Below are positions 27,089 to 51,048 of a stretch of 64,000 nucleotides of DNA, one piece after another (position 1 is the stretch's first letter; every line of letters starts with the position of its first letter). This DNA is from Solimicrobium silvestre (GTDB taxonomy: Bacteria; Pseudomonadota; Gammaproteobacteria; Burkholderiales; Burkholderiaceae_D), in contig NZ_PUGF01000004.1 in the NCBI RefSeq assembly GCF_002976435.1, forward strand, positions 1 to 64,000. The letters are read 5' to 3'. Position numbers and translations under genes: made by a program. A model generated the notes under the pieces. That model was not told the DNA's origin. It did no database searches and was given only the letters and a program-made list of their open reading frames with translations.

Positions 27089-27089
27089 T

Positions 27090-28076
27090 ATGAATAATCC
27101 AATATTACCCCTTATATCTGTAGTCATCCCGTGCTACCGCGTAACTCAACACATACTTGCAGTGATTGATGGTATAGGCTCCGAAGTCAGTCAGATTTAT
27201 GTGATTGATGACAAATGCCCGGACCATTCTGGCAACTTCGTGCGCGCAAACTGTCGTGATCAACGCGTGGTTGTAATCGATCATTTAGAAAATCAAGGGG
27301 TCGGTGGTGCGGTCATGAGCGGCTATGTTGCGGCACTTGCCGGGGGGGCCGACATCATCATTAAGCTTGATGGTGATGGACAAATGGATGCCCGTCTTAT
27401 CCCCAATTTTATTGCGCCCATCTTATCTGGGGAAGCAGATTACACAAAAGGTAACCGTTTTTTTGATTTAGAACAAATCCGGGCAATGCCTACAGTGCGT
27501 TTGTTTGGTAATGCCGTCTTGTCTTTCATCACCAAGGTGTCTTCTGGCTACTGGGATATTTTCGATCCAACCAATGGATACACTGCTATTCACGCCGAAG
27601 CTTTACGTCATCTGCCATTCAAAAAAATCAGTCACCGCTATTTCTTTGAATCGGATATGTTATTCCGACTCAATACTTTGCACGCGGTGGTGGTTGATAT
27701 TCCTATGGATGCCAACTACGGTGATGAAGTAAGCAATCTAAAAATATCTAAAATCGTAACTGAATTCCTGGGTAAACACATACGAAATTTCTTTAAGCGC
27801 TTATTTTACAACTACTACTTACGCAACATGTCACTCGCATCAATTGAATTACCGCTGGGTGTCGGGTTAGTTTTAATGGGTGGTAGTTACGGTGTCTGGC
27901 ATTGGCTGAATTCGGCGCGCATTGATACAGCTACTCCAGCGGGCACTGTCATGCTAGCTGCCTTGCCAATTCTGATGGGAATTCAATTGATCTTGGCATT
28001 TCTTGCTTACGATATTGCTTCCGTTCCGCATCGGCCTATTCACAAAAAAATATTGTTAAAGAAACCTAATGCGTAA
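27090..28076 (+). CDS. GtrB/DPM1-like family 2 glycosyltransferase
   Basis: A 328-residue GT2 enzyme. The GT-A domain has ISVVIPCYRVTQHI, YVIDDKCPDHSG, LENQGVGGAVMSGY and the metal-binding IIKLDGDGQMD. Two hydrophobic segments near residues 255-315 anchor it in the membrane. This is the architecture of enzymes that load a sugar onto undecaprenyl phosphate on the cytoplasmic side. The ATG follows the preceding stop by one base, and the end overlaps the GtrA gene by eight bases. Confidence 0.85.
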   Translation: MNNPILPLISVVIPCYRVTQHILAVIDGIGSEVSQIYVIDDKCPDHSGNFVRANCRDQRVVVIDHLENQGVGGAVMSGYVAALAGGADIIIKLDGDGQMDARLIPNFIAPILSGEADYTKGNRFFDLEQIRAMPTVRLFGNAVLSFITKVSSGYWDIFDPTNGYTAIHAEALRHLPFKKISHRYFFESDMLFRLNTLHAVVVDIPMDANYGDEVSNLKISKIVTEFLGKHIRNFFKRLFYNYYLRNMSLASIELPLGVGLVLMGGSYGVWHWLNSARIDTATPAGTVMLAALPILMGIQLILAFLAYDIASVPHRPIHKKILLKKPNA

Positions 28077-28446
28077 ATTTTTTATTCGTCAACGACAGTT
28101 TTTTGTCTTCATCGTTGGCGGCGGTGTCTGTGCGTTAATTGATATTGGCCTCATGCAGTTGCTTATTGCATTTGGAATTAACTACGTTGGTGCAACCTCA
28201 ACAGGTTTTCTGGCGGGTTTATTAATCAATTACGCATTTCATGCAAATCTGACTTTCCGGGCTAACACGACATCACGCCGCTTTGTCCGATATCTGTGCG
28301 TGGTTGTAATCAACTACCTGATTACAATCGCAAGCGTTAGCCTGTCGATGTCATTAACTGAAACCCCACTGATAGGTAAGTTAGTATCTTTACCTATCAT
28401 CGCTATTAATGGCTATATGCTCAGTAAATATTGGATTTTCAAATAA
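28069..28446 (+). CDS. GtrA family membrane protein (putative lipid-linked sugar flippase)
   Basis: A 125-residue protein with four predicted transmembrane helices and the GtrA-like features FFVFIVGGGVCALIDIGLM, NYAFHANLTFR and a final LSKYWIFK. GtrA proteins are proposed to flip undecaprenyl-phosphate-linked sugars to the periplasm. It overlaps the GtrB-like gene by eight bases, confirming the functional pair. Confidence 0.85.
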   Translation: MRKFFIRQRQFFVFIVGGGVCALIDIGLMQLLIAFGINYVGATSTGFLAGLLINYAFHANLTFRANTTSRRFVRYLCVVVINYLITIASVSLSMSLTETPLIGKLVSLPIIAINGYMLSKYWIFK

Positions 28447-35165: not shown

Positions 35166-35987
35166 ATGTTGCAGATTCAGATACTAGCGAGAATAAAAAA
35201 TAGCTTGCTTGCGTTATGGCACTTCCGTGGATTTATTCTGGGCAGTGTTCAGCGCGAATTCCAGGCACGCTATCGTAATTCGATGCTTGGCGCAGCGTGG
35301 ATGGTGCTAAACCCACTGTCCATGATTTTTGTCTACACAGTGATCTTTACCAAGCTAATGCATCCAAGATTACCCAGCGCCGGCAGTCAATTTTCCTACG
35401 GAATTTATCTTTGCGCTGGCTTATTGACTTGGGGATTATTTACCGACAGTGTGTCGCGCTTGCAAAACGTTTTTATAGAAAATGGCAATCTGATTAAGAA
35501 ACAGAGTTTTCCGCGCAGTTGTTTGCCGATCATTTCAATCATGAATGCCCTCATTAATTTCACCATCATCTTCGGCTTATTCCTGATTTTCTTACTTATC
35601 ACGGGTAACTTCCCTGGCTGGGTATTTTTAGGCCTAATTCCGGTGCTTCTGATTCAAATTTTATTTTCAATCGGGTTAGGTGTGATTCTGGGTGTGCTCA
35701 ATGTTTTTTTTCGCGATGTCGGTCAATTGTTTGGAATTGTTCTGCAATTCTGGTTCTGGTTTACTCCCATCGTCTATACAGCTTCTATCTTGCCTGAGGA
35801 AGTTCAGCCCCTACTAAAGCTCAATCCGATGGCGTCTCTCATCATTGCATATCAAGGTATATTCGTCAGCGGTGTATGGCCGCAATGGTCTAGTCTATGG
35901 CCGGCGACATTAATCAGTGGTGTGCTATGTTTGTGCGGCATGGCCCTGTTTCGCAAACATGTAGGTGAAATGGCGGATGAACTCTAA
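35166..35987 (+). CDS. wzm: Polysaccharide ABC transporter permease (Wzm type)
   Basis: A 273-residue ABC-2 type membrane component with six transmembrane spans. The cytoplasmic N-terminal FILGSVQREFQARYRNSMLGAAWMVLNPL is the classic start of O-antigen and teichoic-acid export permeases. FFRDVGQLFGIVLQFWFWFTPIVY is the conserved late segment. With the ATPase encoded next (TAATG junction), it exports an undecaprenyl-linked glycan to the periplasm. Confidence 0.92.
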   Translation: MLQIQILARIKNSLLALWHFRGFILGSVQREFQARYRNSMLGAAWMVLNPLSMIFVYTVIFTKLMHPRLPSAGSQFSYGIYLCAGLLTWGLFTDSVSRLQNVFIENGNLIKKQSFPRSCLPIISIMNALINFTIIFGLFLIFLLITGNFPGWVFLGLIPVLLIQILFSIGLGVILGVLNVFFRDVGQLFGIVLQFWFWFTPIVYTASILPEEVQPLLKLNPMASLIIAYQGIFVSGVWPQWSSLWPATLISGVLCLCGMALFRKHVGEMADEL

Positions 35988-37234
35988 TGGGTAAAGTAAC
36001 AGTTAAAGGGTTAGGTAAAGCCTACAAATCATACGGTAACCGCTGGGGGCGTTTAGTCGAATGGCTTTCGCCAACTTCTACGCCACGCCATCAATTGCAT
36101 TGGGTGTTACAGGACATCAGTTTTGAATTGGCGGCGGGCGAAGCAGTAGGAATAGTTGGCATGAATGGCGCTGGCAAAAGCACGCTCCTGAAAGTGATTA
36201 CCGGCACCACACAAGCAACCACTGGCACGGTTGAAATTCAAGGACGCGTAGCGGCTTTACTGGAACTCGGCATGGGTTTTCATCCCGATTTTACTGGCAG
36301 GCAAAACGCCATCATGGCTTGCCAGTTGCGCGGCCTGCATGTGGATGAAATTGAAGCGCTCATGCCAGCCATCGAAGCCTTTGCTGAAATCGGTGACTAT
36401 ATTGATGAACCGCTACGGACTTACTCCAGCGGTATGCAGATGCGCCTGGCCTTCAGCGTCGCGACGGCACATCGGCCCGATGTATTAATTGTCGACGAAG
36501 CGTTGTCAGTAGGTGATGCGTATTTTCAGCACAAAAGTTTTAGTCGTATCAGGGAATTTCGCAAGGCCGGCACCACGTTATTAATCGTCACGCATGATCG
36601 CTATGCGATCCAGACCATTTGTGATCGCGCTATTTTGCTCAATCGCGGCAAACTGGAAATGCAGGGAGATCCCATTGAAGTGATGGATTTTTATAATGCC
36701 ATGCTGGCCGAACGTGAGCAGCAAACCGTCAGACAAGAACGATTAGCCGATGGTCGGTTGCGCACCATTTCCGGCACAGGCGAAGCCAGTATTGTTGCTG
36801 TAAACTTGTTCGATGATAAGAATAAAAAGCTGGACGTAGTTGAGGTCGGCACAATCGTTACTTTAGAAATTGAGGTAAAGATCAACAATCCGGTCGAACG
36901 TCTGGTCATGGGATATATGATTAAGGACAAGCTCGGGCAATCAATTTTTGGCATTAACACCCACCGGCTAGACCAACCCCAGACTGATTTATTACCGGGA
37001 GAAAATCTGGTTTATCGCTGTCGCTTCCCGATGAATCTTGGCAAGGGCAGCTATTCAATAGCAATCTCCCTATCGCGACTAGATTCGCATCTGGACACCA
37101 ACTACGAATGGCGCGACTACAGCATTATTTTCCATGTAATCAATACTCGTCATCCCGATTTCGTTGGTTGTGCGTTTCTAGATGCGCAAATCGATGTTGA
37201 ACGTTCTCACAGCTTGCGAGCGACAATAACCTGA
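35987..37234 (+). CDS. wzt: Polysaccharide ABC transporter ATPase with C-terminal carbohydrate-binding domain (Wzt type)
   Basis: A 415-residue protein. The ATPase domain (1-240) has Walker A GMNGAGKST (58-66), signature YSSGMQMRLAFS and Walker B VLIVDEALSVGD. Residues about 255-410 form a beta-rich extension as in Wzt proteins of the E. coli O8/O9a type, where it reads the modified non-reducing end of the finished chain before export. A Wzt of this form implies a chain-terminating modification, and the methyltransferase gene that overlaps this gene's end convergently is a natural candidate. Confidence 0.92.
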   Translation: MGKVTVKGLGKAYKSYGNRWGRLVEWLSPTSTPRHQLHWVLQDISFELAAGEAVGIVGMNGAGKSTLLKVITGTTQATTGTVEIQGRVAALLELGMGFHPDFTGRQNAIMACQLRGLHVDEIEALMPAIEAFAEIGDYIDEPLRTYSSGMQMRLAFSVATAHRPDVLIVDEALSVGDAYFQHKSFSRIREFRKAGTTLLIVTHDRYAIQTICDRAILLNRGKLEMQGDPIEVMDFYNAMLAEREQQTVRQERLADGRLRTISGTGEASIVAVNLFDDKNKKLDVVEVGTIVTLEIEVKINNPVERLVMGYMIKDKLGQSIFGINTHRLDQPQTDLLPGENLVYRCRFPMNLGKGSYSIAISLSRLDSHLDTNYEWRDYSIIFHVINTRHPDFVGCAFLDAQIDVERSHSLRATIT

Positions 37235-39296: not shown

Positions 39297-40967
39297 GTGC
39301 AGATTATTATTCCTATGTCAGGTTTTGGCGAGCGTTTTCGCAGAGCAGGGTATTCCGTTCCCAAGCCGCTGATTGAAATTGACGGGAAGCCGATTGTTGC
39401 ACACGTCATAGATATGTTCCCTGGCGAGAAGGATTTTATTTTTATTTGCAATCAGGATCACCTGGATGATCCCGGCTACCACATGGAGTCGATTCTTAGG
39501 CATTATTGTCCGACAGGTCGAATCATAGGCATCCATCCCCACAAACTTGGTCCAATTCACGCTGTACGACAAGTGGAAAACTTGATTGATCCAGATCGTC
39601 CAGTTGTCGTAAATTATTGTGACTTTACTTGTTCTTGGGACTGGAATCATTTCAAGCAATACGTTGCCAAAACTGCTTGTCAAGGAGCGATACCTGCATA
39701 TAAAGGTTTTCATCCTCACACGCTTGGCAACACGAATTACGCCTACATGCGTGAAATGAGTGGCTGGGTTCAAGATATTCAGGAAAAACAACCCTATACC
39801 AATAACCGTATGGAGGAGTATGCCTCCAGTGGAACTTATTACTTCATTACAGCGCAAATCATGAACGAAGCTTTTCGTATTGCGTTGGAGCAGGATCTCA
39901 ATGTGGGTGGCGAATACTACGTCAGCCTCGCTTATAAGCCGCTTCTTGCCAATAACCAGTCTGTGGCCGTTTACCCGCTTCAACATTTTATGCAATGGGG
40001 TACACCGGAAGACGTTGCTGAATACAACACATGGTCCATGACTTTTAGAAGGTTGGTCGCTCCGGTTAAAGGAGAGCCCAAACCCCACGGCTCACTGATT
40101 GTTCCAATGGCAGGCCTGGGTCAGCGTTTTTCCAACGAGGGGTACGAGTTAACCAAACCGTTGATTCCAGTTTCTGGGATGTCCATGGTTGCGCAAGCAA
40201 CACATGATCTGCCTCCCGCAGAGCATTATGTTTTTGTAGTGAGATCCGATATGCAAGGGTACGAGGACGTTTCGACCGAACTTAAGCGACTCTATCCAAT
40301 GTCGATCATCAAAACGATTGCTCGTGTTACTGAGGGCCAAGCTTGTACGGCACTGATTGGCCTGGATGCATTAGAAAATGAGTTGGATAACATCCCAGGG
40401 CCTATCACCATTGGAACTTGTGACAATGGTGTGTTATATGACTCCAGCGCTTTCGACGGGTTGGTCGATAACTTGGGTGTGGACGTCATTGTCTGGGGTA
40501 TTCGCGGCTACCCCAATGCGGTACGTCACCCGAAAATGTTCGGCTGGATCGATGCTAAGGAGGGACAAATCAGTTCGATTTCCGTCAAAACACCACTTGA
40601 TAACCCCGCCTCTGATCCCATTGTCTTAGGGACGTTTACATTCCGCCGCGGCGAAGACTTCCGTCGTGCTATAGAGCATTTGATTGCTCGCGACGGACGG
40701 GTTAACGGCGAGTTTTACATCGACTCATGCATCAACGATGCTATTGAACTTGGATTGCGGTGTCACCTGCTTGAGGTCGATAGCTATCTGTGCTGGGGAA
40801 CCCCGAATGACCTACGCACTTTTGAATACTGGCAGTCATGCTTCCACAAATGGCCTGGTCATCCCTATCGACTGGAACTGGATAGACGGGTTCCCAAAGA
40901 TCAACTAAAAGCTATTGAAACAAGGTGCCAAGCCATATTGCCGCATCTGCCCGGCAGACAAGCATGA
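39297..40967 (+). CDS. Tandem-domain sugar/polyol-phosphate nucleotidyltransferase
   Basis: A 556-residue protein made of two related nucleotidyltransferase domains in tandem. Domain 1 (about 1-255) starts QIIIPMSGFGERFRRAGYSV with KPLIEIDG; domain 2 (about 265-535) starts SLIVPMAGLGQRFSNEGYEL with KPLIPVSG. Each therefore has its own G-x-G-x-R-F...KPL activation motif, and later acidic motifs NYCDF and TCDNG in the metal-binding positions. The GTG start is needed to keep the first motif. Ordinary family members have one such domain. It heads an operon with a kinase, a phosphatase and an aldolase. The nucleotide and sugar substrates are not evident. Confidence 0.8.
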   Translation: MQIIIPMSGFGERFRRAGYSVPKPLIEIDGKPIVAHVIDMFPGEKDFIFICNQDHLDDPGYHMESILRHYCPTGRIIGIHPHKLGPIHAVRQVENLIDPDRPVVVNYCDFTCSWDWNHFKQYVAKTACQGAIPAYKGFHPHTLGNTNYAYMREMSGWVQDIQEKQPYTNNRMEEYASSGTYYFITAQIMNEAFRIALEQDLNVGGEYYVSLAYKPLLANNQSVAVYPLQHFMQWGTPEDVAEYNTWSMTFRRLVAPVKGEPKPHGSLIVPMAGLGQRFSNEGYELTKPLIPVSGMSMVAQATHDLPPAEHYVFVVRSDMQGYEDVSTELKRLYPMSIIKTIARVTEGQACTALIGLDALENELDNIPGPITIGTCDNGVLYDSSAFDGLVDNLGVDVIVWGIRGYPNAVRHPKMFGWIDAKEGQISSISVKTPLDNPASDPIVLGTFTFRRGEDFRRAIEHLIARDGRVNGEFYIDSCINDAIELGLRCHLLEVDSYLCWGTPNDLRTFEYWQSCFHKWPGHPYRLELDRRVPKDQLKAIETRCQAILPHLPGRQA

Positions 40968-41368
40968 TCAAGCGCGAACTTGGTATTTTTTTGATTGTTG
41001 GCTCATTGACCGTTTTGGTTGATTTTGGCGCATATCGGAGTTTGGTCTGGCTTGAGGTAGCAGGCGTCGATATGGCGAAGGCAATAGGTTTCCTTGCCGG
41101 GACGGTATTTGCCTACTTCGCCAATCGTTTTTGGACTTTTGGCCATAAGTCACATGCATCAGGCAGTTTGTGGCGATTTGTTATCTTGTATGGGATCACG
41201 CTGGGAGCCAACGTACTGGTCAATTCATTGGCATTGAAACTTTTTGCTGATGCAACTGATGCCGTTCACCTCGCTTTTTTGCTCGCAACTGGGGTTTCGG
41301 CCACTCTTAATTTCTTAGGCATGAAGCTATTTGTGTTTAAACCCCGTGCTACTTCGGGGCTCACATGA
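40964..41368 (+). CDS. GtrA family membrane protein (second copy)
   Basis: A 134-residue four-span GtrA protein: IFLIVGSLTVLVDFGAYRSL at the N-terminus, FLAGTVFAYFANRFWTF in the middle, and a final MKLFVFKP. The start at 40964 overlaps the stop of the nucleotidyltransferase gene as ATGA; longer in-frame starts are less likely. It is coupled to the GT2 gene downstream, also by ATGA. Proposed role: flipping a lipid-linked sugar or polyol made by the operon. Confidence 0.85.
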   Translation: MIKRELGIFLIVGSLTVLVDFGAYRSLVWLEVAGVDMAKAIGFLAGTVFAYFANRFWTFGHKSHASGSLWRFVILYGITLGANVLVNSLALKLFADATDAVHLAFLLATGVSATLNFLGMKLFVFKPRATSGLT

Positions 41369-42063
41369 AATTCTCGCTGATCATTCCTTGCTACAACGAA
41401 GCGGAAAATTTACCGTTACTGCTAGAGCGATGCAAAGCACTTGCAACCATGTCAGAAGTCGAAGTCATACTAGTAGACAATGGCTCGACAGACAGCACGC
41501 CCCAAGTACTCTTGAATATGCTGCCGATGTACCCAGGCTGTCGGACCGTGCGTGTTGAAAAGAACCAAGGTTACGGTTTTGGAATCCTGTCGGGTCTCAG
41601 AGCCGCGAAAGGCGAAATCCTTGGCTGGACACATGCGGACATGCAGACTGATCCACAAGATGCGCTAAGCGGTCTTGATCTATTTGAGAAACATGGTACA
41701 GACATCTTCGTGAAGGGGCATCGCTACGGTCGCCCATTTGCGGATGTCATATTTACTATCGGAATGAGTTTCTTCGAAACACTTCTGCTGGCTAGACCGA
41801 TGTGGGACATCAATGCTCAGCCAACCATGTTCCCTCGCAAGTTCTTCGAGTCATGGAGTTCGCCACCCGACGACTTTTCACTCGACCTGTACGCCTACTA
41901 TCAAGCCCAAACCCAAGGGCTCAAGGTCCATCGCTTTCCCGTCAAGTTTGGTGAACGGGCGCATGGTGTGTCGCACTGGAACGTTAACTGGGCAGCGAAG
42001 TGGAAGTTCATTCGCAGGACCATAGACTTCAGCCTGCAATTAAAAAAGAAAATCTCGATATGA
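41365..42063 (+). CDS. Family 2 glycosyltransferase, polyprenyl-phosphate type
   Basis: A 232-residue GT-A enzyme with SLIIPCYNEAENLPLLLERC, VILVDNGSTDSTPQVL, NQGYGFGILSGLRAAKGEILGWTHADMQTDP, the last carrying the D-x-D-like metal site (HADMQ). It lacks the C-terminal membrane helices of longer GtrB proteins. This class includes dolichol/undecaprenyl-phosphate mannose synthases. Next to GtrA, it probably loads the activated unit onto undecaprenyl phosphate. Overlaps both neighbours by four bases. Confidence 0.85.
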   Translation: MKFSLIIPCYNEAENLPLLLERCKALATMSEVEVILVDNGSTDSTPQVLLNMLPMYPGCRTVRVEKNQGYGFGILSGLRAAKGEILGWTHADMQTDPQDALSGLDLFEKHGTDIFVKGHRYGRPFADVIFTIGMSFFETLLLARPMWDINAQPTMFPRKFFESWSSPPDDFSLDLYAYYQAQTQGLKVHRFPVKFGERAHGVSHWNVNWAAKWKFIRRTIDFSLQLKKKISI

Positions 42064-42665
42064 AACTCATTTCTCATCGCCGCAACAGCATCGACGAACT
42101 TCGGGCAACCAACCACAAATATGGTGTCGAAGTAGACATTCGGAGTGAGGGACAGAAGTTGATCATGCACCATGATCCTTTCGTTGCTGGCGAGTCTTTT
42201 GATGAGTGGATTGATGTCTATCAGCATGGAACATTGATTCTCAATGTGAAAGAAGAAGGTCTCGAATCGCGTCTGATTGCTATCATGACATCGAAAGGCA
42301 TTGACGATTATTTTTTCCTGGATCAATCATTCCCGTTTCTGGTGAAGTGGTCAAAAGCGGGAGAGCATCGTTGTGCCGTCCGGGTATCGGAGTTTGAATC
42401 AATTGAGACAGCACTGACCTTGGCAGGAAAGGTGGATTGGGTTTGGGTAGACTGTTTTAGCCAATTCCCTCTTAGTGGAGATGATGCCCAGCGCCTCATG
42501 AACGCCGGGTTCAAGCTCTGCCTGGTTTCCCCAGAATTACAAGGTCGGGATGCTGAAACTGAAATTCCTGCTCTGGCATCACTACTGAGAGAGCGAAATA
42601 TTAAGTCGGATGCTGTTTGCACGAAACGCCCAGACCTTTGGGAAAAAGTGGTAGCTTCGCAATGA
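42060..42665 (+). CDS. GDPD/PI-PLC-like phosphodiesterase-fold protein
   Basis: A 201-residue cytoplasmic protein with the N-terminal pattern of glycerophosphodiester phosphodiesterases: His6-Arg7 (SHRRNS), then GVEVDIRS with Glu24 and Asp26, then MHHDPF with His37/His38 and Asp39. These match the catalytic His pair and metal ligands of the family. The protein is shorter than typical enzymes (about 250) and has no signal peptide. In this operon it may cleave or handle a phosphodiester intermediate; this is inference. Coupled by ATGA overlaps on both sides. Confidence 0.65.
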   Translation: MKLISHRRNSIDELRATNHKYGVEVDIRSEGQKLIMHHDPFVAGESFDEWIDVYQHGTLILNVKEEGLESRLIAIMTSKGIDDYFFLDQSFPFLVKWSKAGEHRCAVRVSEFESIETALTLAGKVDWVWVDCFSQFPLSGDDAQRLMNAGFKLCLVSPELQGRDAETEIPALASLLRERNIKSDAVCTKRPDLWEKVVASQ

Positions 42666-44713
42666 GGAAAGTATGCCTTCATCCGATGTTTTTCTTGGGT
42701 CTTGCAATTCGTTTAGCCCTAATCATAGGGCTTACCCCTCTTGCCGTATCCGACTGGTATGTCCCATTTTTGGATGCCAGTATTTCTTCGGTAACACTGG
42801 ACCCGTGGTCAGGATGGATGACAGGAGGAGGTACGCCCGTAGCGTTTCCTTATGGCTACGCGATGTGGTTGTTTTTTTTGCCAATAACACTTATTACCAA
42901 GCTAATCGGCGCTCCTTTGCAGTATGGGTATGAGCTAACGTTGTTGGCAGCTGATTTTTGCTTGCTGACCACACTTCATCATCTTTTACCGGGCCGCCCA
43001 CGCCTACTTCTAGCTGTCTACTGGTTATCCCCCATTGTCATTCTCGCGAGCTATGCACTAGGACTCAACGACCTAGTGCCCGCTTTGTTCTTAACATTGT
43101 CAATATTTTTCATTCGTCGAGTTGAGCTGAAATTTGCCGGAGCTTTGTGTGCGGCAGCGATTTCAGCCAAATTGAGCATGGTCGTTGCATTGCCATTTTT
43201 TATAATATTTCTTTACAACAATAAAGCTTTACGGCAGCGTATTGCCCAATTTCTATTGGGATTTCTTGTATGTTCACTGATTCTTGGCGTACCTTTTCTC
43301 TTCTCTTATGCAGCTCTTCAAATGCTGTTCGGCAATCCGGAGATGGGGAAAGTTTATAGATTAGCTCTCAGCTTGGGCGACAATGTTTCCATCTACATTG
43401 TCCCATTGGTCTACATGATCATGCTTTACCTGGCGTGGCGAATCCGACGTCTGAACTTTGATTTGTTTCAAGCGATAACTGGAATGGCCTTCTTATTGAT
43501 CGTCTTGATGACGCCAGCATCACCTGGATGGTTTGTTTGGAGCATTCCTTTTCTTGTGCTCTATCAGGCAATGAGCGGGCGAATCGCCATCTTATTGATT
43601 GGGGTATTTTCGGCTCTTTATGTGCTGAGTACCCTACTTGTCACGCCGCTCCAACTTACAAATAACAGTGGCTTTGACTTAGGCAGTGCGCTCCATATGT
43701 CTGCACAACTGGGCAGTCATGCCGCCTCACTCCTGCACACCTCCATGGTCGCCATCGGCGTTGTGCTAGCCATACGAATCTGGCGCGAGGCAATCAGTCG
43801 CAATGATTTTTTCAGACTGAGTCGCAAGCCTTTTGTCATTGGTATAGCAGGTGATTCTGGCGCAGGTAAAGACACCTTTGCCGATTCCATCACAGCGCTG
43901 TTTGGCGGACATTCGGTCGTCAAGCTATCCGGTGACGATTACCATTTATGGGACAGACAGAAACCTATGTGGCAGGTGATGACCCATCTGAATCCCATGT
44001 CCAATGATTTGGAAGGTTTTTGTCGCGATCTGGTTTCTTTGACTGACGGGAAGAGCATTCAATCCAAGCACTATGACCATACAACGGGGAAGATGAGCAA
44101 GCCGGTCCAAATCACCAGTAACGACTTCATCATCGCTAGTGGTTTGCATGCGCTTTATCTTCCGATACTCAGAGATTGCTACAACCTGAAAATTTACCTT
44201 GATATTGATGAAGGATTGCGTCGACACTTCAAGCTCAAGCGAGACGTAGACAAACGAGGCCATACGGTGGAGCGTGTGCTAAGTTCATTCGAAAAAAGAG
44301 AACCTGATTCTGAACGCTTCATCCGACCTCAATCTACCTATGGTGATCTGACCCTTGCATTGCACCCGATCCATCCCCGGATGCTGGAAAGCCTGGATGA
44401 CAAACACCCCCTTCGGCTAAAGCTGATAGTCAAAACACGACATGGGTTCAACGAACTCTCTCTGAACCGTGTTTTAGTTGGAGTCTGCGGACTGCATGTC
44501 GACATCATCGTCTGCGATGATGGCAGCGAAGTGCAGATGATCATCGAAGGTGAAGCATCGGCAGCAGACGTTGCGATGGCGGCAGAGATGCTATGCCCGA
44601 AGGTTCTCGAGTTCTTAGACATTCCGCCCAAGTGGCAAGCCGGTATGGCGGGCTTGATGCAGTTAATCACCCTGTCTCATATCAGCCAAGCATTGACAAA
44701 GCGATTCATATAA
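42662..44713 (+). CDS. Polytopic membrane protein fused to a uridine-kinase/PRK-like kinase
   Basis: A 683-residue two-part protein. Residues 1 to about 375 are a membrane domain with around ten spans and an early periplasmic Asp-rich loop (WYVPFLDASI), resembling GT-C or DUF2029-type lipid-sugar-using transferases. Residues about 385-600 form a P-loop kinase with Walker A GIAGDSGAGKDT (394-405), SGDDYHLWDR and IASGLHALYL, as in uridine kinase and phosphoribulokinase. The last 80 residues are uncharacterised. A membrane transferase joined to a small-molecule kinase is unusual. There is no stop or frameshift at the join, so the fusion is real in this sequence. Confidence 0.72.
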   Translation: MRKVCLHPMFFLGLAIRLALIIGLTPLAVSDWYVPFLDASISSVTLDPWSGWMTGGGTPVAFPYGYAMWLFFLPITLITKLIGAPLQYGYELTLLAADFCLLTTLHHLLPGRPRLLLAVYWLSPIVILASYALGLNDLVPALFLTLSIFFIRRVELKFAGALCAAAISAKLSMVVALPFFIIFLYNNKALRQRIAQFLLGFLVCSLILGVPFLFSYAALQMLFGNPEMGKVYRLALSLGDNVSIYIVPLVYMIMLYLAWRIRRLNFDLFQAITGMAFLLIVLMTPASPGWFVWSIPFLVLYQAMSGRIAILLIGVFSALYVLSTLLVTPLQLTNNSGFDLGSALHMSAQLGSHAASLLHTSMVAIGVVLAIRIWREAISRNDFFRLSRKPFVIGIAGDSGAGKDTFADSITALFGGHSVVKLSGDDYHLWDRQKPMWQVMTHLNPMSNDLEGFCRDLVSLTDGKSIQSKHYDHTTGKMSKPVQITSNDFIIASGLHALYLPILRDCYNLKIYLDIDEGLRRHFKLKRDVDKRGHTVERVLSSFEKREPDSERFIRPQSTYGDLTLALHPIHPRMLESLDDKHPLRLKLIVKTRHGFNELSLNRVLVGVCGLHVDIIVCDDGSEVQMIIEGEASAADVAMAAEMLCPKVLEFLDIPPKWQAGMAGLMQLITLSHISQALTKRFI

Positions 44714-45459
44714 TGAAGATCAATAATAAAGAGCGATTCACTCGCCTGCCAGACGCTTTCTTATTCGATACAGACAACACATTGTATCCATATGATCCTG
44801 CGCACGCTGCTGCGCAGAAAGCGGTGAGGGATAAAGTTGTCAGTACGTTTTCAATCTCTCCTGAAGATTTTGACAAAGCTTTCAAAGAGGCTAGAAACCA
44901 GATCAAAACTCGGCTTAAGCATACTGCGTCTTCCCATAGCCGCTTACTCTACCTTCAGCGCATGCTTGAGATTATGGGCTTGGGTTCGCAAGTGTTACTG
45001 GCCTTGGATTTTGAACAAACCTACTGGCGAACTTTTTTAAGCAACGCCATTTTGTTTGATGAAGTAAAGGGGTTGCTGGACGACATCCGTTTGCTTGGCA
45101 TCCCAACGGCGATTGTCACCGACCTGACTGCACAGATCCAATTCAGAAAGGTCGTCTACTTCGGGCTTGACAACTACTTTGACTACATTGTCACTAGTGA
45201 AGAGGCTGGTTTCGATAAGCCGCATGAAGCGCCTTTCCAGATTGCGCTGGAAAAAATGCGCCCGAAAGGTGATTGTATCTGGATGATTGGTGACAACCCC
45301 GTGAATGACATTCGAGGGGCCCGAGAAAATATCAATGCCGTAACACTTCAAAAAACACATCCGGGTGTCCAGCTTGGCACGGACGCGAACAGACCAGATG
45401 CATCGTTCAACGAGTTCTCCCAATTGAGAAAATTGATCACAAAGTTGGCTGAACAATGA
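44713..45459 (+). CDS. HAD superfamily phosphatase
   Basis: A 248-residue HAD subfamily IA hydrolase. Motif I is FLFDTDNTLYP (Asp19, Asp21), motif II is PTAIVTDLT, the conserved lysine is in GFDKPHEAPF, and motif IV is WMIGDNPVNDIRGA. The cap helix bundle spans about residues 30-115. The start shares one base with the preceding stop (TAATG). In the operon it would dephosphorylate a sugar phosphate, for example the product of the aldolase encoded next. Note that D-T-D replaces the usual D-x-D-G-T with N (DNT), seen in several family members. Confidence 0.85.
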   Translation: MKINNKERFTRLPDAFLFDTDNTLYPYDPAHAAAQKAVRDKVVSTFSISPEDFDKAFKEARNQIKTRLKHTASSHSRLLYLQRMLEIMGLGSQVLLALDFEQTYWRTFLSNAILFDEVKGLLDDIRLLGIPTAIVTDLTAQIQFRKVVYFGLDNYFDYIVTSEEAGFDKPHEAPFQIALEKMRPKGDCIWMIGDNPVNDIRGARENINAVTLQKTHPGVQLGTDANRPDASFNEFSQLRKLITKLAEQ

Positions 45460-46487
45460 TGAGTACGCAAATTAACTCAACGGCCGAACAGGTCAAAGCA
45501 TATTGCACCCGAATTGGCAAAGATCCATTACTAGTTCAGGGAGCAGGGGGAAATGTTTCATGGAAAGATGGAAGCATACTTTGGGTAAAGGCCTCGGGCA
45601 CATGGCTTGCTGACGCAGAGCAAAAAGATATCTTTGTACCTATTGATTTACCTCATTTGCTCAAAGCACTTGACGATGGCGATTTTTCGGTAGAGCCAAG
45701 ACTATGCAGAGAGTCCTTATTACGACCATCTATCGAGACTCTGCTGCATGCTTTAATGCCATCACGCGTGGTGGTGCATCTGCATGCAATTGAAGTATTG
45801 GCCCACCTGGTTCGTGACAATTTTCAGGCCGATTTTGAATCTTTGCTCGATGAATCCACGCCTTGGGCTGTAGTTGATTACTACAAACCTGGGAGTGCCC
45901 TTGCCGCGGAGATCAGCGCCACCCTGACTCAAAAACCGACGACCAAGGTGATTTTTCTTAGAAATCATGGAGTCGTGATCGGTGGAGCAGATGTCGCAGA
46001 GGCGGACCAAATTATTTGTAAATTAACGCTCGCGTTAAGCACCAGACCCGCTGACATTTGCCCTCCTTCACACTTGATGTTTTTGCCTCCGGCAAACTTA
46101 ATTGACCAATATGCCCCAGTAGCTGATTTAGACATACATCAATTAGCATTAACCCCCGACCTTTTTAACCGAGTGAATTCTGATTGGGCGCTATATCCTG
46201 ACCACGTAGTATTTTTAGGTCCCAGGGCTTATGTATATCAAACATGGGAAGCTTTTAACGATCAAAAAATATTTTTGATCGAGCTACCTGAGCTTGTTTT
46301 CGTAAAAGGTAAAGGGGTATATGCAAAGTCATCTTTTAACAAGGCTAAGCAAGTACAGTTACGCTGCTACTTTGATGTAATAGTAAGACAGAAACCTCAC
46401 TCTTCAATGAGAGTTCTTACAGATATTCAAATCGCCGAGTTACTAAATTGGGATGCAGAACAGTACCGAATGAATCTTGCCAAATGA
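45456..46487 (+). CDS. Class II aldolase/adducin family protein
   Basis: A 343-residue protein whose first 215 residues are a zinc class II aldolase domain: GAGGNVSWKDG and VKASGTWL form the phosphate-binding site, PSIET holds the catalytic Glu94, and His108, His110 and His171 (VHLHAIE and RNHGV) are the zinc ligands. Relatives cleave or form fuculose-, rhamnulose- or ribulose-type phosphates. The C-terminal 120 residues resemble the tail of longer RhaD-like proteins. Last of seven coupled genes. It could supply or consume a ketose phosphate for the nucleotidyltransferase pathway. Confidence 0.83.
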   Translation: MMSTQINSTAEQVKAYCTRIGKDPLLVQGAGGNVSWKDGSILWVKASGTWLADAEQKDIFVPIDLPHLLKALDDGDFSVEPRLCRESLLRPSIETLLHALMPSRVVVHLHAIEVLAHLVRDNFQADFESLLDESTPWAVVDYYKPGSALAAEISATLTQKPTTKVIFLRNHGVVIGGADVAEADQIICKLTLALSTRPADICPPSHLMFLPPANLIDQYAPVADLDIHQLALTPDLFNRVNSDWALYPDHVVFLGPRAYVYQTWEAFNDQKIFLIELPELVFVKGKGVYAKSSFNKAKQVQLRCYFDVIVRQKPHSSMRVLTDIQIAELLNWDAEQYRMNLAK

Positions 46488-46516: not shown

Positions 46517-48268
46517 ATGATAAAAAAAATAATAGCGTATCCAAAAAACATTCGCAATCGATTGTTTGAAATGAGCATTCCGGCTAGTAATGAGCCAATG
46601 CAGAGCAACCTTTGTCCAACTATTTTGTTTTCATTGACTATATTTTTCTATATTCTTTATCAGCTGGCCATGCAGCCCGGCTGGGTATTAGGCGGAGAGA
46701 TGTGGGCCGAAATGGCCACTAACTATTTTCCCAATGCAAATTCGCCATCATATCTGCAGAAACTTTTTTCCACAGATTCTGGATATATTCCAGCTCCTCA
46801 GCGTTTAATTGCCTTTGTTGGGAATCAGCTTAATTTGCCAGCAGCATCAGTTCCATACTTTTATACATGGTCCGCAATTATCTTTACAGCGATGATGGTA
46901 GGTACCTTTTGCTTGGCGCAATTCCGGATATTAGTAAAAAGTGACTTATTACGTTTCCTAACGGCCATTTCCATTTTGATGGTTGCTGATTTTGAAACCA
47001 GGACATTTATTAATTTCACATATTTTTCAGCATTTTTTGTAGCAATTGTCACCGCTCTTGCCTTAGTCGACGACTCGGAAGATATTCCTTGGTGGGCGTG
47101 GTTTGTCCCGATTTTGATGGTTTCCAAACCAGCGGTTCTTGCTGCTCTACCGGCAATGATCTTGGTCGCGATGGTTAGTAAATCAAGGTTTCGTTGGATA
47201 ACGATTATCGTGGTAGCGCTATGCATAGGGCAAATTTTGCAAATGGTCACTAGCGCACAAACTGGAATGATGCCATTCCGGATCAATGAAATCACTTTTG
47301 CTTCGAAAGTAATTGCTTCATTTAGGTATTTTCTTGGATTTTTGGGTGGCTACGTTATTGGCCAGACACCGCAACTTACTACATACTTTTTGATGCTGGC
47401 CGGATTATTTGTTGTTAGCGTTAGTGGATTTGCAATTTTCAACAGGAAAAGCAAGGCTGGTGCCTTAATTATCATCGGGCTTTCACTCCTGTTTTTTAAT
47501 GTTCTCTTGAATGCTTTTGCTTTGAGCGACCTCTGGAACCTAGACATGACGAGGCTTGATGGCATTCCCGTTTATAGACACATAGTTGTGGGATTTTCTG
47601 GATGCATTATGGTTGCATCCGGATTATTTTCCGCACTCACACATCAGAAAACTTCGAAGCCAAGTGGGCACTTTAGGAAAAACCTTGGTGCTTTACTATT
47701 TTTTGTTTGGTTTACAGGCTCTGGTTGGCTGTCATTCGCTGGAAAAATAAGCAGAGAACCCCGCTCTCCAACAATTAATAATTCTCAATGGCAGAATATG
47801 GCCGTTGCCATTGACTCCGGCATTTCACCAGTATGTGTTCCTATCGATCCATGGTGGAAAGGAACAAGTTGGATGTACCAAAGAAACTGTAGCGTGCTTA
47901 AGCCGGCACCAGCTTGGGAAGATGGATTAGTTTTAATCAGTAACCCATTATTTTTTGATCTAACCCCACCTTCCGCTATATCTGACAAAACACTTATTGC
48001 AGCAGCAATCTTGGTTAAACCTTTTTCAACCCAAAAAGCGTTCATTGAGGTACAGATGCTTATTAAACTTGTTGACGGCAATGTCATGTATTATGCGGGC
48101 GCGCGAAATTTAAATTCTTCTGGAGGCTTGTTGTTGTTAACGGGAAAAGAAAGCATAGCTATAAAAAATATTTCTTCCGTGAGACTAATATTTAACGTAC
48201 CTGTTGAAATTGCTTTAGCTGCTAATGATCCTACTGGTGTTCCTGGCATCGCCTGGATGGGTAATTAG
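46517..48268 (+). CDS. Large polytopic membrane protein of unknown function (GT-C-like)
   Basis: A 583-residue protein with about ten transmembrane segments between residues 30 and 410, and a soluble C-terminal part of about 160 residues. A first-loop acidic stretch (GGEMWAEMATNYF) sits where GT-C enzymes hold their catalytic carboxylates. No specific family is recognised. It starts 29 bases after the aldolase gene on the same strand and may complete a GtrA-GtrB-type trio as the serotype-specific transferase. Sequence is AT-rich. Confidence 0.6.
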   Translation: MIKKIIAYPKNIRNRLFEMSIPASNEPMQSNLCPTILFSLTIFFYILYQLAMQPGWVLGGEMWAEMATNYFPNANSPSYLQKLFSTDSGYIPAPQRLIAFVGNQLNLPAASVPYFYTWSAIIFTAMMVGTFCLAQFRILVKSDLLRFLTAISILMVADFETRTFINFTYFSAFFVAIVTALALVDDSEDIPWWAWFVPILMVSKPAVLAALPAMILVAMVSKSRFRWITIIVVALCIGQILQMVTSAQTGMMPFRINEITFASKVIASFRYFLGFLGGYVIGQTPQLTTYFLMLAGLFVVSVSGFAIFNRKSKAGALIIIGLSLLFFNVLLNAFALSDLWNLDMTRLDGIPVYRHIVVGFSGCIMVASGLFSALTHQKTSKPSGHFRKNLGALLFFVWFTGSGWLSFAGKISREPRSPTINNSQWQNMAVAIDSGISPVCVPIDPWWKGTSWMYQRNCSVLKPAPAWEDGLVLISNPLFFDLTPPSAISDKTLIAAAILVKPFSTQKAFIEVQMLIKLVDGNVMYYAGARNLNSSGGLLLLTGKESIAIKNISSVRLIFNVPVEIALAANDPTGVPGIAWMGN

Positions 48269-48471: not shown

Positions 48472-51048
48472 ATGACAATGAAAAAAAACAGCTTCGTTAC
48501 ACACTTCCAAATCTTATTATTAACTTTGTTGTTAAGTTCGTGCGGAGGCGGTGCAAGTTCACAATCTCAAACTTCAACAATGTTTACAATTTCGGGAACT
48601 GTTACTGGTTTAAACCCAGGTTCGCAAATTACTATCTTAAATAACGGGGCAGACGCACAAACAGTAACTTCAAACTCTGGATTTGCATTTGACGTTGCCG
48701 TAGTTCGAAACGGTAGTTATGCTGTTACGGTGGGAACTCTAACCGCAGGTCAACTATGCCATGTAACTAATGACACGGGGGTAAATGTTGTAGCAAATGT
48801 CACTGATGTGAGTATTGTATGCGAGGCTGCCGCAGACACAATACTTCATAATTTTTCCGGCCAAACGCCAGTTGGGCCACACCCTTCTTTTTCTTTAACG
48901 TTAGGAAATGATGGTGATTTTTATGGAGTGACAACCCTGGGTGGTACGAGCAACAATGGCACAATATACAAGGTCACATCTGCTGGTGTTGAAACAGTAC
49001 TTTATTCCTTTGCTGGAGGTACGTTGGATGGGACCGCACCTAGTGCTTCTTTAACGCTGGGAAATGATGGCAATTTTTATGGTGTAACGAAGTCTGGTGG
49101 CACCAGTAACAACGGCACGGTGTTCAAAATTACCCCCGCCGGCGTTGAAAGTGTACTTTATTCTTTTAGTTTCAGTGCATATCCTTATTCTTTAACGTTG
49201 GGAAATGATGGCAATTTTTATGGAGTAACAACTAATGGTGGAACCAGTAACAATAGCGGCACTGTATTTAAAATTACTCCTTCCGGCGTTGAAACAGTGC
49301 TCTATTCTTTTGCTGGCGGCACGTTAGATGGAGCCGTACCTTGTGCTTCTTTAACATTGGGAAATGATGGTAATTTTTATGGTGTAACGGAGTCTGGTGG
49401 TACCAGTAACAACGGAACGGTGTTCAAAATTACCCCCGCCGGCGTTGAAAGTGTACTTTATTCTTTTAGTTTCAGTGCATATCCTTATTCTTTAACGTTG
49501 GGAAATGATGGCAATTTTTATGGTGCAACTGCTTATGGTGGAAACAGCAACAATGGCGGCACTGTATTTAAAATTACTCCTTCCGGCGTTGAAACAGTAC
49601 TCTATTCTTTTGCTGGTGGCACGTCGGATGGAACGAATCCTCAGACTTCTTTAACATTAGGAAGCGACGGCAATTTTTATGGGGTCACATCAAATGGCGG
49701 AACCAGCAATAATGGCACCGTATACAAGATCACTCCTGCTGGTGTTGAAACTGTACTCTATTCCTTTGCTGTGGGCACATCGGACTCATCAGATCCTTAT
49801 GGCTCTTTAACACTAGGAAATGACGGCAATTTTTATGGAGTAACTGGGGGCACTGCTAGCGTCCCCACCCAAGGAGTACCTTGGTCTTACCCTAATTTCG
49901 GCACGATATACAAGATCACTCCTTCAGGCGTGAATACATTACTCTATTCATTTACTGGCACTGCGGAAGACGGATTTTTTCCATATTCATCTTTAACTAT
50001 TGGGAATAATGGCAATTTTTATGGTGTGACAGTGGAAGGTGGAAACTACGGTTATGGAACTGCATACAAAATCACTCCCGCCGGTGTTGAAACAGTGCTC
50101 TATTCCTTTACTGGGGGTACATCTGATGGAATTGCACCTTGTGGTTCTTTGACATTGGGAAATGATGGCAATTTTTATGGGGCCACATCGATTGGTGGAA
50201 CCAACGGTTTCGGCACGGCATTCAAAATTACCCCCGCTGGAATTGAAACAGTTCTTTATTCTTTTTCTGGCGGCACATCGGATGGAGCGAATCCTCAGGG
50301 CTCTTTAACATTGGGAAGCGATGGCAATTTCTATGGGGTTACATCGAATGGCGGAACCAACAAAATAGGTACCATATACAAGATCACTCCTGCTGGAATT
50401 GAAACAGTACTCTATTCTTTTGCTGGCGGCACGTCGGATGGAGCGAACCCTCAAACTTCTTTAACATTAGGAAACGATGGCAATTTTTATGGGGTCGCAT
50501 CGAATGGCGGAACCAGCAATAATGGCACTGTATACAAGATTACTCCTGCTGGAATTGAAACAGTACTCTATTCTTTTGCTGGCGGCACGTCGGATGGAGC
50601 AAATCCTCTAGCCTCTTTAACATTGGGAAGCGATGACAATTTCTATGGGGTTACATCGAATGGCGGAACCAGCAATAATGGCACCGTATACAAGATTACT
50701 CCTGCTGGAATTGAAACAGTACTCTATTCTTTTACTGGCGGCACGTCAGATGGAGCGAATCCCCAGGCCTCTTTAACGTTGGGAAGCGATGGCAATTTCT
50801 ATGGGGTTACATCGAATGGCGGAACCAGCAAAAAAGGTACCATATACAAGATCACTCCTGCTGGAGTTGAAACAGTACTCTATTCTTTTGCTGGCGGTAC
50901 GTCAGATGGAGCGAATCCCCAGGCCTCTTTAACATTAGGAAGCGATGGCCATTTTTATGGAGTGACTACGCAAGGCGGAATATTTTCGAATATTCACCCA
51001 ATAGGAAATACTATGCCAGCGCAAAATGGAACAGTTTTCAGATACTGA
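48472..51048 (+). CDS. GloVer-repeat lipoprotein
   Basis: An 858-residue secreted protein. The N-terminus is a lipoprotein signal with lipobox LLLSSC followed by GGGASS, so it is probably anchored in the outer membrane. Residues about 38-120 form a bacterial carboxypeptidase-regulatory-like beta domain (FTISGTVTGLNPGSQITI). The rest is 14 tandem repeats of about 50 residues with core SLTLGNDGNFYGVT..GG...NGTVFKITPAGVE-like, the choice-of-anchor GloVer repeat, expected to form a beta-propeller-like structure. An alternative ATG lies two codons downstream. Function unknown; surface binding is plausible. Confidence 0.85.
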   Translation: MTMKKNSFVTHFQILLLTLLLSSCGGGASSQSQTSTMFTISGTVTGLNPGSQITILNNGADAQTVTSNSGFAFDVAVVRNGSYAVTVGTLTAGQLCHVTNDTGVNVVANVTDVSIVCEAAADTILHNFSGQTPVGPHPSFSLTLGNDGDFYGVTTLGGTSNNGTIYKVTSAGVETVLYSFAGGTLDGTAPSASLTLGNDGNFYGVTKSGGTSNNGTVFKITPAGVESVLYSFSFSAYPYSLTLGNDGNFYGVTTNGGTSNNSGTVFKITPSGVETVLYSFAGGTLDGAVPCASLTLGNDGNFYGVTESGGTSNNGTVFKITPAGVESVLYSFSFSAYPYSLTLGNDGNFYGATAYGGNSNNGGTVFKITPSGVETVLYSFAGGTSDGTNPQTSLTLGSDGNFYGVTSNGGTSNNGTVYKITPAGVETVLYSFAVGTSDSSDPYGSLTLGNDGNFYGVTGGTASVPTQGVPWSYPNFGTIYKITPSGVNTLLYSFTGTAEDGFFPYSSLTIGNNGNFYGVTVEGGNYGYGTAYKITPAGVETVLYSFTGGTSDGIAPCGSLTLGNDGNFYGATSIGGTNGFGTAFKITPAGIETVLYSFSGGTSDGANPQGSLTLGSDGNFYGVTSNGGTNKIGTIYKITPAGIETVLYSFAGGTSDGANPQTSLTLGNDGNFYGVASNGGTSNNGTVYKITPAGIETVLYSFAGGTSDGANPLASLTLGSDDNFYGVTSNGGTSNNGTVYKITPAGIETVLYSFTGGTSDGANPQASLTLGSDGNFYGVTSNGGTSKKGTIYKITPAGVETVLYSFAGGTSDGANPQASLTLGSDGHFYGVTTQGGIFSNIHPIGNTMPAQNGTVFRY
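49021..49620 (+). repeat. Recent 300-bp tandem duplication inside the GloVer gene
   Basis: Bases 49021-49320 and 49321-49620 are near-identical copies, each holding two repeat units. The 60 bases at 49141-49200 match 49441-49500 exactly. Further 150-base units between about 50220 and 50950 are also highly alike. In-frame gain or loss of repeats by recombination is likely. Confidence 0.85.

Follow-up and report, generated by a model that had tools for sequence, protein, structure and literature searches.

Seven overlapping genes of Solimicrobium silvestre, lying in a window of 64,000 nucleotides (the whole stretch of DNA analysed), probably form a self-contained and patchily spread cassette that converts ribulose-1,5-bisphosphate (RuBP), a compound known chiefly from photosynthesis, into an activated pentulose and attaches this to a glycan of the cell surface; a rough probability of 60% may be given to this reading. 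That RuBP is the entry point is a supported inference; a xylulose or ribulose product, like the manner of its activation, is hypothetical. A more detailed proposal, offered only tentatively, is that bacteria and cyanophages divert RuBP by way of ribulose-1-phosphate to a nucleotide-activated ketopentofuranose (xylulose or ribulose) for surface sugars, that the twin nucleotidyltransferase domains and a GDPD-like enzyme achieve the activation in two stages, the latter enzyme shifting the phosphate from C1 to C2, the anomeric carbon, through a cyclic phosphate, and that Calvin-cycle hosts can lose the kinase; this would be a new branch of central metabolism.

Gene content and spread of the cassette

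The seven genes occupy positions 39297-46487 of the plus strand (Table 1), and every junction overlaps, five by the 4 bases ATGA and one, that of g5 and g6, by a single base in TAATG. The start position of g1 is common to six of seven aligned homologues, all opening with M[QKH]I[IV]IPMSG, and the longer starts mechanically listed for g2, g4, g5 and g6 are upstream in-frame codons. An eighth gene follows g7 after 29 bases. The overlapping seven-gene operon described in the initial annotation is therefore borne out by the reading frames and by all six overlaps; likewise its calls of a double nucleotidyltransferase, GtrA, GT2, HAD phosphatase and class II aldolase agree with the family searches (Pfam and NCBIfam), in which the PRK-type kinase domain was identified as well.

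Table 1. Genes of the cassette and of its surroundings in the window
Feature	Position	Strand	Assignment
g1	39297..40967	+	double nucleotidyltransferase; G-x-G-x-R and KP motifs intact in both RmlA-like domains; GTG start
g2	40964..41368	+	GtrA, predicted flippase for undecaprenyl-phosphate-linked sugar; PF04138, 65 bits
g3	41365..42063	+	GT2, 232 aa, predicted loader of sugar onto undecaprenyl phosphate; PF00535, 91 bits
g4	42060..42665	+	predicted compact GDPD-fold phosphodiesterase; fold from structure model
g5	42662..44713	+	polytopic membrane domain fused to phosphoribulokinase (PRK)-like kinase with C-terminal region
g6	44713..45459	+	HAD phosphatase; first-listed curated family ribulose-1,5-bisphosphate 5-phosphatase (NF053830)
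g7	45456..46487	+	class II aldolase plus C-terminal region beyond the Pfam domain
g8	46517..48268	+	predicted polytopic membrane protein without family match
ABC exporter permease	35166-35987	+	assigned solely from its position and a distant similarity
Wzt-like ATPase with Wzt_C domain	35987-37234	+	PF14524 and PF00005

Loci were chosen through g1 alone and then scored for the other families; 80 of the 87 were drawn from a search yielding 234 relatives, and seven had been found earlier. The GDPD-like protein recurs in 81 of them, the membrane domain in 80, the aldolase in 79, the kinase in 78, HAD and GT2 in 76 each, and GtrA in 62, being below the detection threshold in the other 25, whereas under strict clustering the next commonest neighbour cluster reaches at most 15 of 86 loci. 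Chance does not account for this grouping, which is repeated in most of the 87 loci, and a lone or local operon is ruled out. The genes thus co-occur in other genomes, those of widely differing bacteria (Azospirillum brasilense MTCC 4039 is one environmental carrier), where the initial annotation had proposed to look for them side by side: the set is complete in 55/87 loci, or in 53 of 85 distinct ones, for L028 and L089, as well as L030 and L115, are the same contigs.

Distant-mode searches of 5426 genomes with query segments of about 4 kb returned two plasmid records and no E. coli chromosome, by which E. coli O-antigen loci were set aside as the source. That the cassette is so patchily distributed, reaching even plasmids of E. 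coli, suggests a mobile module for decorating surfaces. In PMC8707391, as far as its accessible text goes, xylulose is reported from a handful of bacterial polysaccharides, and E. coli O95 carries it; no E. coli chromosome matched in spite of this, and the 5426 genomes may not include an O95. Solved xylulose polysaccharides also come from Devosia submarina KMM 9415, C. jejuni RM1221 and Y. enterocolitica O:10; in the available description of the O:10 cluster no such genes are listed. One of 25 Yersinia genomes, already known, carries g1, and the genomes are not tied to serotypes; Yersinia was consequently discarded as a direct test of xylulose. Searches of an open-access library found no paper on this gene set, in keeping with the earlier statement that no described pathway has exactly this composition. 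If the proposed reading holds, the seven-gene set would be a marker to look for in any genome.

The enzymes proposed to act on ribulose phosphates

The membrane part of g5 spans residues 1 to about 380 and the kinase domain begins at about residue 386; 76 of 78 loci have the two fused in one reading frame. The kinase domain had been labelled uridine-kinase-like; it scores 196 bits against the PRK model and 90 against uridine kinase, both under the curated cut-offs, and its best matches among structures are PRKs, by sequence and by fold, so that a uridine kinase identity is rejected in favour of a PRK-like one. Like the Calvin-cycle PRK and the cyanobacteria-specific PRKs 9qkn, 9qko and 9qkp, it has the PRK fold and most active-site motifs, namely the P-loop and the motifs D425/H428/R432 and R527/D528/R532, which are presumably residues of the Ru5P site. 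It differs from the Calvin-cycle enzyme by its fusion to a membrane protein, its location in a glycan operon and the loss of the Walker-B glutamate of PRK (...EGLH...), which is replaced by S, T, N, A, G or I in 79/79 cassette kinases; for this reason the domain is called PRK-like rather than a PRK, and its activity is not certain. Indirect support exists for a first step in which this domain would phosphorylate ribulose-5-phosphate to RuBP.

In the second step the HAD phosphatase g6 would remove the 5-phosphate of RuBP to give ribulose-1-phosphate, as its family supports: g6 scores 165 bits against NF053830, under the curated cut-off of 330, and the same family is matched by all 31 HAD members scanned. 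A haloarchaeal HAD characterised in PMC9700705 performs this reaction, and shares its operon with a FucA-like ribulose-1-phosphate aldolase according to the sections of that paper available. The cassette resembles this system in pairing a RuBP 5-phosphatase-type HAD with a class II aldolase. As presented there, the haloarchaeal system differs in being catabolic and in drawing its RuBP from nucleosides; the operon, in turn, adds the PRK-like kinase, nucleotidyltransferases and glycan-transfer genes, and its aldolase belongs to another subfamily.

The protein g7 has the zinc ligands (HxH plus H) and the catalytic glutamate of a class II aldolase of the FucA/RhaD type. Its H108, H110 and H171, which are taken to be the ligands, and E94, taken to be the catalytic residue, are kept in 80/80 members. 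Its profile matches FucA structures; the RhaD-type bifunctional aldolase is matched by 33/33 members, versus 7/33 for the ribulose-1-phosphate aldolase model, which tells against the proposed pathway. In a third step g7 would act on ribulose-1-phosphate, most likely by retro-aldol/aldol remodelling, for example a C4 epimerisation to xylulose-1-phosphate.

The aldolase might instead split ribulose-1-phosphate, again formed from RuBP, into dihydroxyacetone phosphate (DHAP) and glycolaldehyde, leaving the nucleotidyltransferase and GDPD-like enzymes to handle a C2/C3 unit such as a glycerol- or dihydroxyacetone-type phosphate. Glycerophosphodiesters are the classical substrates of GDPDs, and the glutamate and zinc ligands typical of the aldolases are retained in g7. 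Such a cleavage is also the reaction characterised in haloarchaea, to judge from what is accessible of PMC9700705. This route is unlikely, as GT2 with GtrA is typical of undecaprenyl-phosphate-linked sugars, the seven conserved families include no reductase, and a costly path through RuBP to DHAP would be pointless, DHAP being a common metabolite. The missing reductase disfavours a polyol too; of what had been suggested initially, a coupled unit that probably produces an unusual nucleotide-activated sugar and places it on undecaprenyl phosphate is supported.

Kinase decay and Calvin-cycle genes

All 13 scored residues are retained in 74 of 85 kinase domains. The other 11 comprise two that are cut or frame-broken and nine that are decayed, from six cyanobacteria (L111 and five genomes of its family), two Nitrosomonas and one Nitrosospira; RuBisCO is present in eight of these nine genomes, and in the ninth (G595) a Calvin-type PRK alone was found. 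Loss of at least four residues is seen in 7/11 RuBisCO-positive versus 1/63 RuBisCO-negative genomes, the one being G595 (Fisher p = 1.4e-6, genomes treated as independent); with G595 counted as Calvin-positive, loss of any residue gives 9/12 versus 0/62 (p = 2e-9, uncorrected for shared descent). The testing covered 74 of 80 loci, L038, L053, L059, L097 and L109 being omitted for want of a kinase and L047 for being the same genome as L046. The RuBisCO table is without L041 and L042 (no kinase on the contig), L063, L066, L082 and L107 (kinase truncated or frame-broken) and the seven earlier loci, and weaker RuBisCO matches of 211-224 bits (L056, L096, L106) were scored as negative. Against the RuBP reading, the decay is confined to two or three lineages, three genomes with RuBisCO (L036, L050, L058) retain intact kinases, and so do four (L039, L040, L054, L055) that have no RuBisCO and a second PRK-family match above 200 bits. 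Of 312 residues chosen from HAD, aldolase, GDPD and nucleotidyltransferase of the six cyanobacterial cassettes, 311 are unchanged, the exception being one D-to-E replacement. The genome of the window gave no RuBisCO match when searched, and g5 is its sole PRK-family gene.

If RuBP is indeed what is diverted, the cassette's own kinase domain would be free to decay in Calvin-cycle organisms, because the cycle supplies RuBP; the pattern of decay is the strongest evidence for this entry point. The HAD family and the kinase decay point to the order kinase, HAD, aldolase, rather than aldolase, dephosphorylation and re-phosphorylation as first proposed. That earlier scheme, an unspecified sugar or polyol made by aldol addition, dephosphorylation, uridine-kinase-like re-phosphorylation, activation and transfer, does find every enzyme class it needs in one operon; it is nevertheless improbable, for the kinase is PRK-like, the HAD resembles RuBP 5-phosphatase, and an unrelated sugar would not predict kinase decay only in carriers of Calvin genes while the other cyanobacterial cassette enzymes stay intact.

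The kinase domain might also be mainly structural or regulatory, its decay reflecting lineage drift and the substrate being another host-supplied phosphate, e.g. a hexose phosphate. The absence of the Walker-B glutamate throughout is consistent with this, as are the decayed domains, which remain fused and keep their C-terminal region, and the three RuBisCO-bearing genomes with intact kinases (L036, L050, L058). Moreover, in a distant module of nucleotidyltransferase and GDPD the HAD proved to be of the beta-phosphoglucomutase type in all three instances checked, and a PRK is not annotated there. The great majority of domains with every scored residue in place, and the viral locus L182, where an apparently intact PRK-like domain sits in a different fusion beside the same enzymes, make this explanation improbable.

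Proposed activation and transfer, and related systems

The second domain of g1 is recognisable in the homologue alignment by its own motifs; searched alone it gave no Pfam match and a single NCBIfam match of 21 bits. The GDPD-like call for g4 agrees with the fold of the predicted structure (mean pLDDT 96.1) despite the lack of a Pfam or NCBIfam match, and a sequence-profile search of the PDB gave none either. The model suggests a GDPD/PI-PLC-like TIM barrel with HR, ExD and HD motifs; H6, E24, D26, H38, K64 and E65 are kept in 82/82 members, R7 in 81 and D39 in 79. Within the proposed diversion of RuBP, g1 and g4 would in a fourth step convert the ketose-1-phosphate into a nucleotide-activated ketofuranose. 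Speculatively, one g1 domain would form an NDP-1-ketose closing to a 1,2-cyclic phosphate, which g4 would open to the anomeric 2-phosphate for activation by the other domain.

From families and gene context, GT2 would then put the sugar onto undecaprenyl phosphate and GtrA would flip it, after which a GT-C-like enzyme (the g5 membrane part and/or g8) would pass it to an exported polysaccharide. The g5 membrane domain is perhaps GT-C-like: it has an ALG3 match just under the cut-off, and all 50 matches listed in the g5 structure search are kinases, none placing the membrane part in a fold family. As in gtrA-gtrB-gtr(type) O-antigen side-chain cassettes, GtrA adjoins a GT2 for forming an undecaprenyl-phosphate sugar, and the conserved core is flanked by polytopic proteins that vary. 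Serotype-conversion cassettes of this kind use ready-made host nucleotide sugars, whereas the operon brings its own genes for sugar synthesis and activation. A homologue of g8 occurs in 11/87 loci (ten downstream of g1, one upstream), and 56/86 have some large membrane protein no more than 2.5 kb from the cassette; g8 is likely a variable, acceptor-specific transferase using the lipid-linked sugar. The ABC pair upstream probably exports the glycan that receives the sugar: the window contains the Wzt_C ATPase and several glycosyltransferases, and similar pairs occur near Azospirillum and Hirschia cassettes, with exporter homologues in only 8/87 loci.

The ADP- and GDP-heptose pathways combine a sugar kinase, the HAD phosphatase GmhB and a nucleotidyltransferase. 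They follow a like logic, in which a kinase makes a bisphosphate, a HAD removes the far phosphate and a nucleotidyltransferase activates the remainder; the operon, however, has another kinase family and an extra aldolase and GDPD-like enzyme, and would activate a ketose-1-phosphate rather than an anomeric phosphate. If the proposal is true, RuBP is used for surface glycans, beyond carbon fixation and nucleoside salvage, and the question of how uncommon ketofuranoses, xylulose for example, are activated for bacterial polysaccharides becomes testable.

Full-length relatives of g1, at about 39%, occur in cyanophages. The sugar modules of Synechococcus phages Bellamy and S-SM2 resemble the operon in gathering a homologous dNTase, a class II aldolase, a GDPD-like protein and a HAD in one block, but have a GT61 glycosyltransferase, a different HAD subfamily and no GtrA, GT2 or PRK matches. 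The nucleotidyltransferase, aldolase, HAD and GDPD occur together in 47 of 48 viral-collection loci with sufficient downstream sequence, and a PRK is absent from the stretches fetched, L182 excepted, a combination that favours the RuBP reading. Kinases apart, nothing of use came from the viral structure search; g4 remotely matches cyanophage GDPD-like proteins. Cyanophages would, on the proposed pathway, connect host carbon fixation with phage-encoded sugar genes. Counts of NT_RpiB in viral loci are mostly cross-matches of the nucleotidyltransferase domain to dNTase. An RpiB fusion is present in phage Bellamy, and the same layout is seen in L143 and L165.

Operon and candidate route through ribulose phosphates

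The seven genes with overlapping junctions described in the initial annotation are present as such (five ATGA overlaps and one TAATG), and the protein classes named there stand for the NTase pair, GtrA, GT2, HAD, aldolase and the GDPD-like fold of g4, but the kinase is of the phosphoribulokinase (PRK) type rather than uridine-kinase-like. In a family-profile search of the operon proteins, matches were obtained for the double nucleotidyltransferase (dNTase, g1), GtrA, GT2, the fusion of a membrane protein with a PRK-type kinase (g5), the HAD phosphatase (g6) and the class II aldolase (g7), and none for g4. The predicted structure of g4 is a compact GDPD-fold barrel (mean pLDDT 96.1; TM-score 0.63-0.72 to GDPD structures among the matches listed), in which H6, E24, D26, H38, K64 and E65 are kept in 82/82 members, R7 in 81/82 and D39 in 79/82. 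The g5 model (mean pLDDT 89.5) has PRKs as its best structural matches, and the kinase carries the motifs P-loop K, DDYH..R, RD...R, R..D and PQ; g5 is the single PRK-family gene of the window's genome, where a search for RuBisCO gave no match.

All 31 HAD members scanned match the family of ribulose-1,5-bisphosphate (RuBP) 5-phosphatases, which is the first-listed family for g6, at 165 bits and thus below the cut-off of 330. In the published account, a characterised RuBP 5-phosphatase used RuBP among 12 substrates tested, yielding ribulose-1-phosphate, and has its operon in common with a FucA-like aldolase (PMC9700705).

Four observations point to RuBP as the entry compound: the type of the kinase, the family of the HAD, the pattern of kinase decay (below) and, in the window's genome, the missing RuBisCO match beside a single PRK-family gene. 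Around this gene set a pathway can be proposed. Ribulose-5-phosphate would be converted to RuBP and then to ribulose-1-phosphate, and at the far end GT2 loading would be followed by GtrA flipping, steps supported by family membership. Between them, ribulose-1-phosphate may be remodelled by g7, the Glu/Zn set of which is of the aldolase type; its RhaD-like similarity would fit a change at C4 to L-xylulose-1-phosphate. More speculatively, the dNTase and the GDPD-like protein could move the phosphate to the anomeric carbon via a cyclic phosphate.

Xylulose is a rare sugar in polysaccharides, with reports from E. coli O95, Y. enterocolitica O:10, C. jejuni RM1221, Eubacterium saburreum and Devosia submarina (PMC8707391). 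The O:10 O-antigen cluster as published accounts for the backbone and does not list genes for L-xylulose synthesis (PMC11380512), which would fit a separate cassette for this sugar. A search of open-access PMC papers found none that combines four or more of six terms for the gene set, and there the sole match to pentulose nucleotide names concerns ribitol in dystroglycan.

Upstream of the operon, several glycosyltransferases accompany the ATPase of a Wzt-type exporter, and downstream of g7 lies the membrane gene g8. Since a second GT2 and GtrA pair is present (table), two or more lipid-linked sugars may serve for glycan decoration in this region.

Table. Features located in the window and in compared loci
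Feature	Location	Remarks
GT2 + GtrA pair, second	window 24701-28440	with YfhO-like membrane protein
Repeat protein	window 48472-51048	directly after g8; large, many similar repeats (GGTSNNGTVYKITPAGVETVLYSFAGG...)
Eight-gene set, L025	NZ_CP145712.1 6022-14984	small E. coli plasmid (IncR)
PRK-like domain with other N-terminal part; GDPD-like domain with another protein	L182 328-1809 and 3531-4910
Bellamy NTase-RpiB/LacAB isomerase fusion	L142 7776-8933	adjoins weakly PfkB-like kinase, same sugar block

Recurrence of the gene set

Among 200 genomes from its order, only the window's own encodes the full g5 fusion, the other eight matches spanning essentially the kinase part; g1 recurs at 41-60% in four further genomes among 369 of the class. 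Complete sets, in differing gene orders, were found in plasmid records of Escherichia coli (IncR plasmid), Azospirillum brasilense and Hirschia baltica. A g1 profile scan of the GTDB species-genome collection returned 234 relatives, the best 80 of which, together with seven earlier loci (including L031, with g1 alone), make up 87 loci. These contain g4 (81), the membrane domain (80), aldolase (79), kinase (78), HAD (76), GT2 (76) and GtrA (62), some missing genes being due to contig ends. All families occur together in 55/87 loci, and 13 more lack GtrA alone at the threshold used; L028 and L089 represent one contig, as do L030 and L115, which leaves 53 complete sets among 85 distinct loci. L046 and L047 lie in one genome and have sequence in common.

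In 76/78 loci the kinase and the membrane part form a single in-frame fusion. Some loci begin with the aldolase and others end with it, and parts may be inverted; given this variable order, selection seems to keep the set and not one order. When neighbouring ORFs of 86 loci were clustered, each of the seven families appeared in 43-82 loci, against at most 15 for any other cluster, under a strict clustering that may split divergent neighbour families. Within 2.5 kb of the cassette, 56/86 loci have a large membrane protein from one of several unrelated clusters, as expected for acceptor-specific transferases.

All eight genes reside on a small IncR plasmid of E. coli in L025, where IS26 lies about 1.6 kb downstream, and in NZ_JCAPUP010000005.1. 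The cassette segment tested was found in 2/5426 E. coli genomes, plasmid-borne both times, with human and bullfrog as recorded hosts.

Kinase decay and the Calvin cycle

Thirteen kinase residues were scored across 85 domains, and 74 retain them all. Two of the 11 incomplete domains are cut by a contig end (L082) or a broken frame (L066); the nine decayed ones belong to six cyanobacterial loci (L111, a Prochlorococcus, and L209-L213, from genomes of the same family), two Nitrosomonas (L049, L051) and one Nitrosospira (L052, three residues lost). RuBisCO was found in all but one of these nine genomes; the exception, G595, has a Calvin-type PRK and no RuBisCO match. At least four residues are lost in 7/11 RuBisCO-bearing carriers against 1/63 others, the one being G595 (p = 1.4e-6; L063, L066, L082 and L107 left out), and any residue in 9/12 against 0/62 when G595 is counted as Calvin-positive (p = 2e-9), p values that overstate the case because decay arose in two or three lineages and not in nine independent events.

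In the six cyanobacterial cassettes, 311/312 residues chosen from the HAD, aldolase, NTase and GDPD are kept. Read most simply, the pattern means that a carrier can do without the kinase when a Calvin cycle supplies the kinase product. Against this reading stand the intact kinases of three RuBisCO-bearing carriers (L036, L050, L058) and those of four carriers without RuBisCO that have another PRK-family match above 200 bits (L039, L040, L054, L055).

Phage and plasmid relatives of the activation enzymes

A scan of viral contigs with g1 gave 64 loci. Six of them closely resemble the bacterial cassette: L129 has g1 to g7, L130 everything except the start of g1, and four stop at or near g1. In the other 58 (L132-L189), which include Synechococcus phage Bellamy and apparently S-SM2, g1 matches at about 37-43%, and a Bellamy query recognised 56 of them. 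Where the fetched stretch extends at least 3.2 kb downstream of the dNTase, it encodes a GDPD-like protein (48/48), a small HAD (48/48) and a class II aldolase (47/48); profile comparison relates the phage GDPD-like proteins to g4 (probability 95.4% over 64 columns) and the aldolases to g7 (99.6%). That the Bellamy NTase is fused to an RpiB-type isomerase hints at pentose phosphates.

No PRK was found in the fetched stretches of these divergent loci except in L182, where a PRK-like domain is apparently intact; its two fusions (table) are independent fusions of cassette enzymes. The contig is phage-like, with a PhoH-like ORF following (by eye).

Twenty-five plasmid records match g4, three being the plasmid cassettes described above, and six further regions were opened (L116-L121, from Rhizobium, Sinorhizobium, Azospirillum, Scandinavium and Pseudomonas). 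All six encode a GDPD-like protein, a HAD phosphatase, which in the three tested is of the beta-phosphoglucomutase type, and a double or separate NTase; three encode a WavE protein, and none an annotated PRK or aldolase. This more distant module probably belongs to a different sugar pathway that shares the activation unit. Taken together, the phage cousin and the plasmid module suggest that the NTase pair and the GDPD-like enzyme form a reusable unit for activation, which RuBP would feed in the cassette.

Partial sets at 23-39% identity, NTase with GT2 and GtrA or with GT2 and GDPD, occur in another two genomes of that cyanobacterial family (L214, L215) and may represent intermediates of the module.
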